64,000 nt of DNA from Bifidobacteriaceae bacterium (GCA_031270825.1 JAISXH010000059.1:28910-92909), one strand, 5' to 3'. Numbered from the stretch's first letter, positions 1,726-5,852 are shown. Notes: generated from the letters alone by a model not told the origin. Translations and numbers: made by a program.

Positions 1726-2976
1726 TCAGTCCCCAAGGAGCGCGAGCGGGACCACGGCGACCCCGTCTGACCGCCGATACGCCGTCGCGCCCGTCGTGAC
1801 GACCATGAGGTCGACAACGCGGTCCGGGAACTGATCGCGGAGCCAAAGAAGGTGCCGCACATCAGCTTCCGAGACGGCCGGGGCGAGTTTGACCTCTACG
1901 CCCACGATCCGCCCGTCCCCGCCCTCCACGACGAGGTCGACCTCGCGGCCCCCGCCCGCCAGCCGCAGGTGGCTCACCGTGGCCTGCGCCGCCTGAGCCA
2001 ACACCCGGACGCCCAACGTCGCCAACGACTCGAACAACGGCCCCGCCATATGCGCCCCCGCCGGCCCGAGCAGGGCCGCCTCGGACAGCCCGAGCAGCCG
2101 CGCTGCCAGCGCCGGGTCGGCGAGCTGGTGCTTCGGCGCCTGTCGCAGCCGGCCGATCGGGTTGTTCGCGGGCGTCCACCCCGGGACGGGATCGAGGAGC
2201 CACAGCGCGCTGAGGTGGTCGCGATAGGCGATCGTCGTGGTCTTCGCGGGCTGGGACCCGTCGCCCGCGGTCGTCGCGTCGAGCAGACGCGAGTACGCGG
2301 TCGAACACGACGATGCCGCGGCGTAGGCCGCCAACCACCGCCGCAGCGTCTCGGGTCGGCGCACGTCATGCCCGATGCCGGGCAGCTCTCGATCGATGAC
2401 GCGCAAGATGTACGCGTCGAGGAGCGCGCGACGCAGCCTGGGGGCGGCGCCCATGATGCCTGGCAAGCCGCTGCCGATGATCGCGCTGGCGTAGTCGACC
2501 AAGGAGAAACCGGTGTGTCCCTCGACGCGCCCGGCCTCCCCCGCGAGCACACGCGACAGCGAGACCGAAGGCAGGACGGCGCCGCGCTCGTGCAGGCCCA
2601 TCGGCCGCATGCGCAGCGACAGTATTCGCCCGGCGCCGCTGTGGGTGTCGCCACGAGCCGTCGGGGTCGCCGACCCGGTCAAGAGGTAACGCCCGGGGGG
2701 TGCGCCGGCGTCCACCTGGCGACGGACGGAGTCCCACACCTGCGGCAGCAACTGCCACTCGTCCAGGAGCACGGTGCCGGGCGGGGCGGACCCCAAGTCG
2801 AAGTCGGCGGCCGCCACCTCACGTTGAGCGGGATCGTCCAGGAACCACGCCGCGTCAGCCCGCCTCTGGGCCGTCGCGGTCTTGCCGACGCCTTTCGGGC
2901 CGTCCAACGCGATCGCGGAGGCGAGCGGAAGCAGCTCGTCAAGCTCGCGGTCGACCGTTCGAGAGAGATAGGCCAC
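1726..2976 (-). CDS. AAA+ ATPase with DUF4143 domain (copy 1)
   Basis: The protein has 416 residues. A Walker A motif GPKGVGKT sits at residues 26-33, a Walker B-like strand LLDEWQLLP near residue 75, and a sensor-like LLTGSATP segment follows. The C-terminal DUF4143 domain ends with a restriction-endonuclease-like strand pattern (GGGREVDLVVEGG ... VGVEVKL). Function in this family is not established. Members are common, often multicopy, and resemble archaeal-type predicted ATPases. The start is GTG, with TACGCT six bases upstream, so a leaderless transcript is likely. A 23-bp tandem array (8 units) lies immediately upstream. It is divergent from the broken second copy at 3381. Confidence 0.85.
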   Translation of the reverse strand: MAYLSRTVDRELDELLPLASAIALDGPKGVGKTATAQRRADAAWFLDDPAQREVAAADFDLGSAPPGTVLLDEWQLLPQVWDSVRRQVDAGAPPGRYLLTGSATPTARGDTHSGAGRILSLRMRPMGLHERGAVLPSVSLSRVLAGEAGRVEGHTGFSLVDYASAIIGSGLPGIMGAAPRLRRALLDAYILRVIDRELPGIGHDVRRPETLRRWLAAYAAASSCSTAYSRLLDATTAGDGSQPAKTTTIAYRDHLSALWLLDPVPGWTPANNPIGRLRQAPKHQLADPALAARLLGLSEAALLGPAGAHMAGPLFESLATLGVRVLAQAAQATVSHLRLAGGGREVDLVVEGGDGRIVGVEVKLAPAVSEADVRHLLWLRDQFPDRVVDLMVVTTGATAYRRSDGVAVVPLALLGD

Positions 2977-3009
2977 GGGTTCAGCGTAGCAAAGGGGGCG
3001 CCGCCCACG

Positions 3010-3193
3010 CTACCGTTTGCGGCTTCGCCACGCTACCGTTTGCGGTTTCGCCACGCTACCGTTTGCGGTTTCGCTACGCTACCGTTTGCGGTTTCGCTAC
3101 GCTACCTTTTGCAGTTTCGCTACGCTACCTCTTGCAGTCGCGCCACACTACCGATCACGGCTCGAGCACGCTGCCGCCTGCGCGTCGAACGGG
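3010..3193 (-). repeat. Tandem array 1: eight 23-bp units upstream of DUF4143 copy 1
   Basis: Units start at 3010, 3033, 3056, 3079, 3102, 3125, 3148 and 3171, exactly 23 bp apart. The first four are nearly identical (CTACCGTTTGCGGTTTCG then C/T, ACG). The rest degrade with distance from the minus-strand gene start at 2976. Read in the gene's direction, the core is CCGCAAACGGTAG, very close to the core of the array at 5784. The units are contiguous with no spacers, so this is not a CRISPR. An operator or iteron-like protein binding array is inferred. Confidence 0.85.
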
Positions 3194-3207
3194 CGAGTCG
3201 CTCCCCG

Positions 3208-3367
3208 GGTTCTCTCCCGGTCTAGAGCCTCTGCAACTCCCGGTCTAGAGCCTCTGCAACTCCCGGCCTGGAACCTCTGCAACTCCCGGCCTGGAACCTC
3301 TGCAACTTCCGGCTTGGAAGCTCTGCAACTCCCGGCCTGGAACCTCTGCAACTCCCGGTCTGGCTGA
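3208..3367 (+). repeat. Tandem array 2: six to seven 23-bp units upstream of the DUF4143 remnant
   Basis: CTGCAACTCCCGG recurs at 3231, 3254, 3277, 3300, 3323 and 3346 (one unit with TTCCGG), again every 23 bp. A degenerate unit (TCTCTCCCGGTCTAGAG) sits one period earlier. The unit differs from array 1 apart from a shared TGCAA/CGCAA element. The array ends beside TAGGGT (3368), which lies 7 nt before the ATG at 3381, so it occupies the position of upstream promoter elements for the plus-strand gene. Confidence 0.85.
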
Positions 3368-3380
3368 TAGGGTCGAGGCC

Positions 3381-4144
3381 ATGGACACGTTGCCGATCAC
3401 GGGCCAGTCCTACCGGCCTCGCCTGATCGACAAGGTGGTGCGCCAAGGCCTGGCGGCCGCGGGCGCCGTGCTGATCGAGGGCGCTCGCGCCTGCGGCAAG
3501 ACGATGACGGGACTGAACGCGGCGGCATCGTACGTGTTCGTCGATGACGAGGCGGCTCAGCTGATGCGCGGGATCGCGCCGCAGGTGCTGCTCGACGGAA
3601 ACCCTCCCCGCCTGGTGGACGAATGGCAACTCGCCCCGGATATGTCGACGCCCTGGAGCGCTTGTTCATCGTGGAGAAGCAGCCGGCCTGGACGCCACGG
3701 CTGCGTTCGCGGGCGCGCCTGCGCACGGCCGACAAGTGGCACCTGGCCGACCCTTGTCTCGCGGTCGTCGCCCTGGGCGCGAGCGCCGAAACGCTCAAGC
3801 GAGACCTCAACACGGCCGGGCTCCTATTCGAGAGCGCTGTCATCCACGATCTCCGCGTCCTCGGCGCGCCCCTCGGGATCGACGTGCGCCATTTCCGAGA
3901 CTCCAACGGCCGCGAGATCGACGCGGTTCTGACGTTGCCCGACGGGCGCTGGGCCGCCGTGGAAGTGAAACTGTCGGGCTTGCAGGTGGCCGCTGGAGCC
4001 GCGTCGCTCGCCGCCGCCGTCAACGACGTCGACCTGGCGGCGGCGGGCGAGCCGGCTTTCCGCCTCGTCGTCACCGGCACAGGCCAGACCTTCGCCTTGG
4101 ACGACGGCGCCGTCACCTGTCCCTTGCCCGCGTTGCGACCCTGA
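3381..4144 (+). pseudogene. AAA+ ATPase DUF4143 remnant (copy 2), internal deletion with frameshift
   Basis: The N-terminal part has the Walker A motif GARACGKT at residues 34-41 and the Walker B-like LVDEWQLAPD. Near base 3640 the sequence jumps into another frame, encoding the C-terminal part (YVDALERLFIVEKQPAW ... LRSRARLRTADKWHLADP ... GREIDAVLTLPDGRWAAVEVKL). Around 130-200 residues between Walker B and the DUF4143 core are missing, and the two halves are out of frame. The Walker A lysine and the nuclease-like EVKL strand survive in separate pieces. The start is ATG with TAGGGT 7 nt upstream (leaderless-like). This is a dead paralogue of the flanking intact copies. Confidence 0.8.
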
Positions 4145-4505
4145 CGGGACCGAAGGCCGCGCCACGGATGCCAAGGCCGACTGCAAGACTGCGCCGGCAA
4201 GGGGTGCCTGAACGTGGGCGGGACGCTGTGCGCGAACGCGGATTCAGGGTGTGTAGGACAGCAAACGCGCTGGTTATTGGCTCGGAGTTGCGGCGGCCGA
4301 CGGTGTCCCGTGTTCCATCGGCGGCAACAAGGCCCGGGGGGACTGCGGCTAGACCCGAGCAGACCGCGTTCCCGTTCGGCGCGCGTCGCCGAGCGGAGCT
4401 AGGGGTGGCGGAGATGGGCGCCCGTGCATGGTGTCCCCAAGGTTGGGCTCGGGGTCTCGCGGCCAGACGGCCATGAGCAGCGGGAGGTCGGCGTTCGGGA
4501 GGCGT
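4145..4505. other. Intergenic stretch with no recognisable gene
   Basis: These 361 bp separate the broken and intact DUF4143 genes. The open frames here are extensions or shadows with no family resemblance. I see no tandem 23-bp units, no strong hairpin and no tRNA. Confidence 0.5.
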
Positions 4506-5774
4506 TCAGGGTCCCAAGAGGGCGAGTGGGATTACGGCGACTCCGTCGGGGCGGCGCAAGGCGCGGTCCGAGGTGTTGAGCAGCACCTTGTCCAGCACGC
4601 AGCCGGGCAGCGACTGATCTAGCCAGTTCAGGGTGGCCACGTCGGCTGGCCGCACTTGGCCGGACAGTTTCACATCGATCGCGACCACGCGGCCATCGGG
4701 CCGCTGCACTATGACGTCCACCTCCCGCCCGTCGCGGTCGCGGAAGTGCGAGACCCGGCAGCCGAGCTGCTCGGCGAGCACGCGCACGGTCTGCACCGCG
4801 AGCGATTCGAACAGGGCGCCCAAGAAGGTGCCGTCTTTGGGGCGGCCCGGCTGGCCGTCTTCGTTGATCAAGGACGCTTGGGTCGCGCCGACCAGCCGCG
4901 CGGCCAGCGCGGGATCGACCAAGTAATGCTTCGGGCCCTGGGCGAGACGCTTCAGATGGGAGCCTCTCGGCACCCAGGCGGGTACTGGGTCCAACACCCA
5001 GATCCGGCTCAGGAGCTCGCGGTAGACGGCTGCGGTTGGCCTGCTCGGTTTGTCGGAACGGCCGGGCGCGGCCGCGTCCAGTAGCGCAGAGTAGGAGGCG
5101 GTGGTGCTGGTCGCGGCGGCGTAGGCGGTGAGCCAGGCGCGCAATGCCCCCGGCTCCCGCACGGGCCGCCCCGCCGCTGGGACGTCGTGGTCCACTATGC
5201 GGTCCAGGTAGCTGTCGAGCAGCAAGCCGCGCGCGGGAGGGAGGGCCTGTCTGATGCCCGGAAACCCCGAATCCAAGATTTCCCGCACGTACTCCACTGT
5301 CTTCACCCGTGTGTCGCCACCCAACTGGGGGCGCGTGCCCGCCAAGAGGCCGGCCAACGAGACCGACGGCTGCTCCAGGCCCCGTTCGGGGAGCGACAGC
5401 GGACGCATCAACAGGCGGACGATCCGCCCCGCCCCGGAGTGCGTTCGCGCCCCAGGCGACGCGGCGGCGGACCCGGCCAACAGGAAGCGTCCCGGGGCGG
5501 CGCCGGGGTCCACCGCCCTACGGACCACGTCCCACACCGGCGGCACAATCTGCCACTCATCGATGAGGGTCGGCGCGCGGCCGGTCAGGACCAACTCCGG
5601 ATCCGCCTCCAGGTTGGCCCGCGTGACCGGCGAGTCCACGGAGAACACGTCGGCCGCGACCCGCTTCGCGCTCTCGGTCTTGCCTACCCCCTTCGCGCCT
5701 TCGATGGCGATGGCGGGCAACAGCCCGAGCCACTCGGCCAACTTGGCGTCCACCAGCCTGGGCAGGTAATCCAC
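4506..5774 (-). CDS. AAA+ ATPase with DUF4143 domain (copy 3)
   Basis: The protein has about 422 residues. The Walker A motif GAKGVGKT is near residue 26-33 and LIDEWQIVPPVWD is the Walker B-like strand. The middle is conserved with copy 1 (THSGAGRI ... LMRPLSLPERG), and the C-terminus carries DGREVDVIVQRPDGRVVAIDVKL, the nuclease-like strand of DUF4143. The ORF track opens at GTG 5780. I prefer the GTG at 5774 because TAAACT lies exactly 7 nt before it, giving a leaderless start. That -10 is embedded in the first unit of a 23-bp array. The role is unknown in this family. Paralogy with copy 1 is evident from shared motifs along the whole length. Confidence 0.85.
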   Translation of the reverse strand: MDYLPRLVDAKLAEWLGLLPAIAIEGAKGVGKTESAKRVAADVFSVDSPVTRANLEADPELVLTGRAPTLIDEWQIVPPVWDVVRRAVDPGAAPGRFLLAGSAAASPGARTHSGAGRIVRLLMRPLSLPERGLEQPSVSLAGLLAGTRPQLGGDTRVKTVEYVREILDSGFPGIRQALPPARGLLLDSYLDRIVDHDVPAAGRPVREPGALRAWLTAYAAATSTTASYSALLDAAAPGRSDKPSRPTAAVYRELLSRIWVLDPVPAWVPRGSHLKRLAQGPKHYLVDPALAARLVGATQASLINEDGQPGRPKDGTFLGALFESLAVQTVRVLAEQLGCRVSHFRDRDGREVDVIVQRPDGRVVAIDVKLSGQVRPADVATLNWLDQSLPGCVLDKVLLNTSDRALRRPDGVAVIPLALLGP

Positions 5775-5783
5775 AAGCACAAG

Positions 5784-5852
5784 TTTACCATTTGCGGGCC
5801 GACAACTTTACAAAATGCGGCCCGGCCGCTTTACAAGATGCGAGCGGCCGAT
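5784..5852 (-). repeat. Tandem array 3: three 23-bp units upstream of DUF4143 copy 3
   Basis: TTTAC starts at 5784, 5807 and 5830, exactly 23 bp apart. In the gene's direction the cores read CCGCAAATGGTAAA, CCGCATTTTGTAAA and TCGCATCTTGTAAA. The first matches the array 1 core CCGCAAACGGTAG. Its TAAA forms part of the likely -10 element (TAAACT, 5787-5782), so a protein bound to unit 1 would occlude the promoter. Confidence 0.8.

Follow-up and report, generated by a model that had tools for sequence, protein, structure and literature searches.

Tandem 22/23-bp arrays upstream of DUF4143 ATPase genes and their predicted recognition by the gene products

Arrays and genes in the window

The whole stretch of DNA analyzed, called the window here, is 64 kb long and contains exactly three arrays of period 23, which Tandem Repeats Finder placed at 3005-3153, 3214-3363, and 5779-5842. 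They precede three genes whose products match AAA_14, DUF4143, or both. When the units were followed one by one in register, the period was exactly 23 bp across all three arrays, and each array ends at a TANNNT -10 located 6-7 nt ahead of a start codon. The features, with the basis for each in brackets, are as follows.

1726..2976, minus strand: gene 1, AAA_14 ATPase with winged helix and PD-(D/E)XK, 416 aa, PADLOC PDC-S01 (Pfam, PADLOC HMM)
2983..2988, minus strand: -10 hexamer of gene 1, TACGCT (sequence)
2992..3175, minus strand: array 1, 23-bp units GGTAGCGTRGCGAAACCGCAAAC (Tandem Repeats Finder and register)
3214..3366, plus strand: array 2, 23-bp units CTCCCGGCCTGGAACCTCTGCAA (Tandem Repeats Finder and register)
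3368..3373, plus strand: -10 hexamer of gene 2, TAGGGT, 7 nt before ATG 3381 (sequence)
3381..4144, plus strand: gene 2, DUF4143 pseudogene (domain matches, frame stops)
4506..5774, minus strand: gene 3, AAA_14-DUF4143, about 422-424 aa (Pfam, PADLOC HMM)
5774..5842, minus strand: array 3, three 23-bp units at 5842-5820, 5819-5797, and 5796-5774 (Tandem Repeats Finder and register)
5782..5787, minus strand: -10 hexamer of gene 3, TAAACT, within the last unit of array 3 (sequence)

An earlier note on this DNA had described exact 23-bp arrays at DUF4143 genes, and this observation was confirmed throughout the three arrays. The eight units it counted in array 1 are six well-kept ones (3152-3015, minus strand) and one degenerate unit on each side (3175-3153 and 3014-2992), all in register; the six to seven of array 2 are six full units (3214-3351) and a partial seventh that merges into the -10. 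Array 3 has the three units reported, with the -10 TAAACT (5787-5782) inside the promoter-proximal one. The core said to be common to arrays 1 and 3 is found in the last unit of array 3 (CGCAAATGGTA), but the other two units of that array read CGCATYTTGTAAAG. Domains of the family are present at all three of the supposed ATPase loci, but gene 2 is a pseudogene, in which the P-loop half (3381-3932) and the DUF4143 half (3623-4144) lie in different frames and the middle has been deleted. Array 2 is intact despite its broken gene. A pattern search allowing up to 3 mismatches found no units of arrays 1 and 2 elsewhere in the 2.94-Mb genome.

Both Pfam domains score above the gathering score in genes 1 and 3 (PF13635, 66.6 and 83.6 bits; PF13173, 39.6 and 37.9 bits), with E-values of 2.8e-18 and 6.5e-10, respectively, in gene 1. 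The PADLOC model PDLC04790 matches both proteins over their full length (gene 1, 1.1e-66, residues 2-414; gene 3, 6e-72, residues 3-422). The predicted start of gene 1 is a leaderless GTG at 2976, 6 nt past the -10 TACGCT, which lies one unit on from array 1 and in register with it. Gene 3 probably starts at a leaderless GTG at 5774, 7 nt past its -10, with 5780 as a possible start.

PDC-S01 is a phage-defense candidate of PADLOC, an ATPase fused to PD-(D/E)XK, which is reported to be the fourth most common defense system of prokaryotes and is awaiting validation (PMC12988326). The genes described here belong to the same family by HMM (PF13173 and PF13635, COG1373) and, like it, are single genes. 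Our literature search found no description of an operator array, recognition code, or autoregulation for PDC-S01; for DUF4143 it returned one occurrence, in a table, with no array described.

Distribution of the arrays

Among 200 DUF4143 genes drawn from the same family, order, and phylum and from named relatives, 103 upstream regions had a strong 22/23-bp period. Chance is excluded because this score was attained by 0 of 814 control segments, taken at random from the same loci, and by 0 of 400 dinucleotide shuffles. A looser score detected arrays in 151 of 184 upstream regions, and in a newly fetched, non-redundant set of close relatives (subfamily A) 67 of 70 had one. Array-bearing homologues were also found in Bacteroidota, Chlorobiota, Bacillota, and Pseudomonadota. 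Plasmid-borne homologues (from Prosthecochloris, Bacteroides, Collinsella, Lentilactobacillus, Mycobacterium, Rhizobiaceae, and Azotobacter) had 22/23 as the best period in 11 of 12 cases, some of them weakly; no relatives were found in viral contigs. A minority of arrays have a period of 32/33 bp, one helical turn more. About 10-20% of homologues lack an array, and some of these have long inverted repeats instead.

The arrays are also largely confined to these genes. At a score threshold of at least 14, the window and 60 named loci with their flanks (945 kb together) contained 39 period-23 arrays, of which 38 lie directly upstream of DUF4143 genes (34 scored there and four added by inspection, including that of the second paralogue of locus L202); the 39th is GC-rich sequence. 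The earlier note had named two outcomes that would refute it, a lack of periodic repeats upstream of most homologues and an equal frequency of such arrays away from DUF4143 genes. Both were tested: periodic arrays proved to be the rule upstream of homologues, and nearly all period-23 arrays in the 945 kb were located at DUF4143 genes. The window's genome has 16 DUF4143 matches; in most of the full-length paralogues a 22- or 23-bp array with a different unit occupies the same place. Matches number up to 39 per genome. The arrays at DUF4143 genes are real and general.

A 400-kb sample of the window's genome contained two period-23 arrays. The first precedes a DUF4143 gene, whereas the second adjoins a gene for tRNA-Ser and is unrelated to DUF4143.

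An origin of the arrays in unselected tandem duplication (VNTRs) or in the remnant ends of mobile elements is scarcely credible. The array copy number varies, some arrays are nearly perfect internally, and the array beside tRNA-Ser may be of such a kind. However, the 22/23 period is fixed in several phyla despite unrelated unit sequences, and the placement at the -10, the exclusivity, and the residue-base code described below all speak against such an origin, which the held-out test of that code contradicts.

No gene recurs as a neighbor, since of about 54 loci no more than 4 shared any one neighbor family; array and gene thus appear to form the whole unit. A toxin-antitoxin operon was rejected on the same count, there being no conserved adjacent partner gene. 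A CRISPR-like array was rejected as well, the units being contiguous, with a variable stretch of only 5 bp and no unique spacers.

Co-variation of units and proteins

On the coding strand, units grow more alike as protein identity increases; on the reverse complement their similarity is flat (Mantel, 0/500). Tracking of this kind is also expected from linked descent alone. After removal of overall identity, the best-tracking protein columns were 247, 274, and 248, with 251 high too (residues are numbered from the 5780 start of gene 3). Once the units were phased, the mutual information between residue 349 and base 1 reached z=17.6 and that between residue 247 and base 6 reached z=12.9, against permutation maxima of 8.2-8.6 for column-base pairs. 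Across 128 arrays, Arg or Lys at residue 349 occurs with C at base 1 in 65 of 66 cases and His with G in 15 of 16; Lys at residue 247 accompanies a purine at base 6 in 61 of 66 cases, and Arg accompanies T in 42 of 53. Tyr349 is mostly found with T.

This base-by-base code was kept in held-out genes, a new set whose units were phased with positions 1 and 6 masked. The 349/base 1 rule was right in 45 of 49 of them and the 247/base 6 rule in 54 of 64; 5000 shuffles never rose above 39 and 43, respectively. To allow for relatedness among the sequences, we used clustering, contrasts, and within-clade permutation. In the permutation, the observed value was attained in 0 of 5000 trials for both rules (128 arrays), and the closest non-overlapping Arg/Lys-His349 pairs had the predicted bases in 15 of 16. 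The co-variation of unit and protein that the earlier note had proposed to look for is present, and its suggestion that each locus has a binding specificity for its own product is supported at two protein sites.

The AlphaFold2 model (pLDDT 91.7, pTM 0.92) has a winged helix with helices at 210-222, 230-237, and 247-259. Residue 247 is placed by the model in the first turn of the third of these, the recognition helix, and residue 349 at the turn of a PD-(D/E)XK hairpin between strands 342-348 and 353-359, adjoining the conserved E353 and D355. Together with the code, this suggests that a hairpin beside catalytic residues reads a base. Because the two residues predict letters of the unit, the protein very probably binds the array of its own gene; the co-variation points to recognition of the operator sequence by the gene product, and the DUF4143 protein itself is the most likely binder. 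Within arrays, agreement between units is best at bases 23, 1, 6, 7, and 10-13 and worst at 16-20, and the predicted footprint is about 18 bp with a 5-bp spacer per unit.

Binding by a separate regulator encoded elsewhere, with the DUF4143-unit co-variation reflecting linked descent only, is very unlikely. Promoter and gene are indeed inherited together, and unit similarity follows protein identity, but the signal falls on two single residues at predicted DNA contacts and is not spread over the protein. It also outlasts the within-clade permutation and the closest-pair contrasts. Moreover, no neighbor gene recurs, and one such regulator per paralogue would be required.

In subfamily B, which is more diverse, no residue-base pair passed permutation after EM phasing, and phasing on the -10 gave no common register. 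High ranks in subfamily B were limited to residue 247 and the wing: among about 380 columns, residue 247 came 9th in both of two separate sets, and the wing residues 277/278 stood close to the top in the set with 23-bp units. The residue-base code, as read from these alignments, is established in subfamily A only.

The Walker and PD-(D/E)XK residues are intact in nearly all of the 128 and 81 array-bearing genes. In the set of 128, K34, D74, E75, D355, and K371 are present in every gene, E325 in 127, and E/D369 in 125. Such retention implies that the protein has been kept as an ATPase and probably as a nuclease, not as a repressor only. A role of this ATPase-nuclease in antiphage defense is plausible.

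A sequence search of the PDB gave no match at E<=0.01. Foldseek ranked two archaeal AAA+ ATPases (2qen and 2fna) and Orc1/Cdc6 bound to origin DNA (2qby) highest; these share the order of AAA+ followed by winged helix, with TM-scores not exceeding 0.41/0.48 and identities of 13-16%. We know of no tandem self-array for these proteins. The PD-(D/E)XK nucleases Card1/Can2 are cyclic-oligonucleotide-activated CARF nucleases without comparable AAA+ or winged-helix parts, and their likeness to the DUF4143 protein is a weak fold match only.

Promoter overlap and predicted regulation

In subfamily A the operator overlaps the promoter. The -10 is located at unit position 8-9 in 30 of 43 genes and the start codon at position 20-21 in 27 of 43. 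TANNNT occurs in register in 72 of 104 last units, but the figure drops to 34/104 in the preceding unit and to 22/104 in the one before that; at locus L202, for example, the upstream units have CAGACT and the last unit TAGACT. The maintenance of TANNNT in the promoter-proximal unit suggests that the last unit serves as promoter and predicted binding site at once. Occupancy of this unit should exclude RNA polymerase, which argues for negative autoregulation, and the DUF4143 protein probably silences its own gene. Paralogues in one genome have dissimilar units, so each probably regulates itself separately.

From the evidence of sequence and prediction, we therefore consider it likely, with a probability of roughly 0.8, that each array offers the product of the following gene a row of sites to bind and that occupancy of the -10 unit results in negative autoregulation. 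One protomer, with its AAA+ ATPase, winged helix, and PD-(D/E)XK, would bind each 22/23-bp unit physically. The recognition helix (residues 247/248) would read bases 6 and about 10-11, and the PD-(D/E)XK hairpin (residue 349) would read base 1. Contacts between neighboring protomers would hold the units about two helical turns apart, or three in the 32/33-bp arrays. That the spacing is fixed and the sequence free suggests that these contacts are rigid. The spacing would then be preserved as the sequence changes in step with the recognition residues and paralogues separate. The promoter-proximal unit would hold the -10 of a mostly leaderless promoter, and cooperative occupancy would shut the gene off; both the cooperativity and the sign of regulation are steps that we infer.

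The protein may instead bind the array and activate or switch its own promoter, or act through ATP-driven changes rather than repression, which we regard as unlikely. Subfamily B arrays stop directly before the -10, in the place of the -35, which is an activator position, so activation is possible there; the array copy number also differs among loci. In subfamily A, however, the last unit encloses the -10 and is the only one to maintain TANNNT, so that occupancy should keep RNA polymerase out.

In iteron/Rep plasmids, the protein encoded next to tandem direct repeats of about 19-22 bp binds them and often regulates its own gene. The earlier note had left the choice between autoregulation and an iteron-like system; the -10 inside the last unit favors the former over an iteron-type replication function. 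There is only a slight chance that the array serves replication or maintenance in the manner of iterons, with the DUF4143 protein as an initiator-like AAA+ protein. The fold search does put the model near Orc1/Cdc6 on origin DNA, and the 22-bp spacing resembles that of plasmid iterons. However, DUF4143 matches number up to 39 per genome, mostly on chromosomal contigs, no replication genes recur alongside and no origin accompanies the array, which sits on the -10, and the protein combines AAA+ and PD-(D/E)XK in place of a Rep fold. An iteron/Rep system proper was rejected, the gene being solo, with no recurrent neighbor and many paralogues per genome.

Beyond negative autoregulation, the array might be a DNA-borne antidote and self-address, a possibility that we hold only tentatively, as less probable than not by a wide measure. 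The AAA+-nuclease would form an inactive filament along its own promoter, its catalytic PD-(D/E)XK hairpin docked at base 1 of each unit. If the array were lost or displaced, as in phage takeover or loss of the locus, an active nuclease would be released and its expression would restart. If so, paralogues with separate tags would be a repertoire of independent one-gene defense or addiction modules.

Under the preferred reading of negative autoregulation, PDC-S01/DUF4143 gains a concrete predicted activity, namely sequence-specific binding to a site that is legible immediately upstream of most copies. It also gains a partial amino-acid-to-base code, and its copies would provide many natural orthogonal regulator/operator pairs. 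A handle on the trigger of the system would be offered by its expression and by release from the array.

Among described regulators, RptR is a defense-island repressor that acts at its own promoter through direct repeats overlapping the -10 and is linked to antiphage genes; it is a 9-kDa homodimeric regulator with 9-bp repeats containing a TAGCTA palindrome (PMC12255303). The likely binder here, in contrast, is an ATPase-nuclease of 420 aa, and the 22/23-bp units are non-palindromic.

Pairs of paralogues within one genome showed a slight excess of unit divergence at 50-70% identity, in a set of only 12 pairs.

Putative alternative operator architectures upstream of DUF4143 genes

A long, near-perfect inverted repeat lies over the promoter in 7 of 20 DUF4143 homologues that lack a 22/23-bp array (score at least 10), and in none of the shuffled sequences. 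This putative operator is a different operator architecture within the same DUF4143 family. Arrays or paired repeats with a 32/33-bp period, which exceeds 22/23 bp by one helical turn, were found at other loci.

Repeat architectures upstream of DUF4143 genes, by compared locus
Inverted repeat over the promoter: L023, L026, L065, L073, L181, L193; also L385
32/33-bp period, arrays or paired repeats: L025, L040, L082, L084, L085, L086, L167, L180, L194

Decay and flanks of the DUF4143 cluster

The middle DUF4143 gene of the window is a pseudogene, carrying an internal deletion and a frameshift, and keeps an intact six-unit array. The reading frames bordering the cluster appear truncated, one looking alcohol-dehydrogenase-like and the other sugar-transporter-like, as if the cluster sat at a recombination breakpoint.

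494-1680: bordering reading frames, apparently truncated
3381-4144: middle DUF4143 gene, pseudogene

Expansion, possible transfer and an unrelated array

The single 2.6-Mb genome G017, a member of the family to which the window's genome belongs, has 39 matches to DUF4143, an extreme expansion of one family. In a different phylum, the conjugative plasmid pPAES01 of Prosthecochloris aestuarii (L375) carries a DUF4143 gene together with a 23-bp array of subfamily-A-like type, which suggests that array and gene moved together by horizontal transfer; they adjoin an fxsT gene, with a recombinase gene close by.

Contig C16 of the window's own genome also contains a 23-bp array of four units (TCGGGACAYAGGAAAC...) that adjoins a tRNA-Ser gene and has no sequence relation to the DUF4143 arrays. 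It is possibly a mobile-element end. One lone related unit adjoins what looks like another tRNA gene.

L359:15600-15684: four-unit array beside tRNA-Ser
L357:17708: lone related unit
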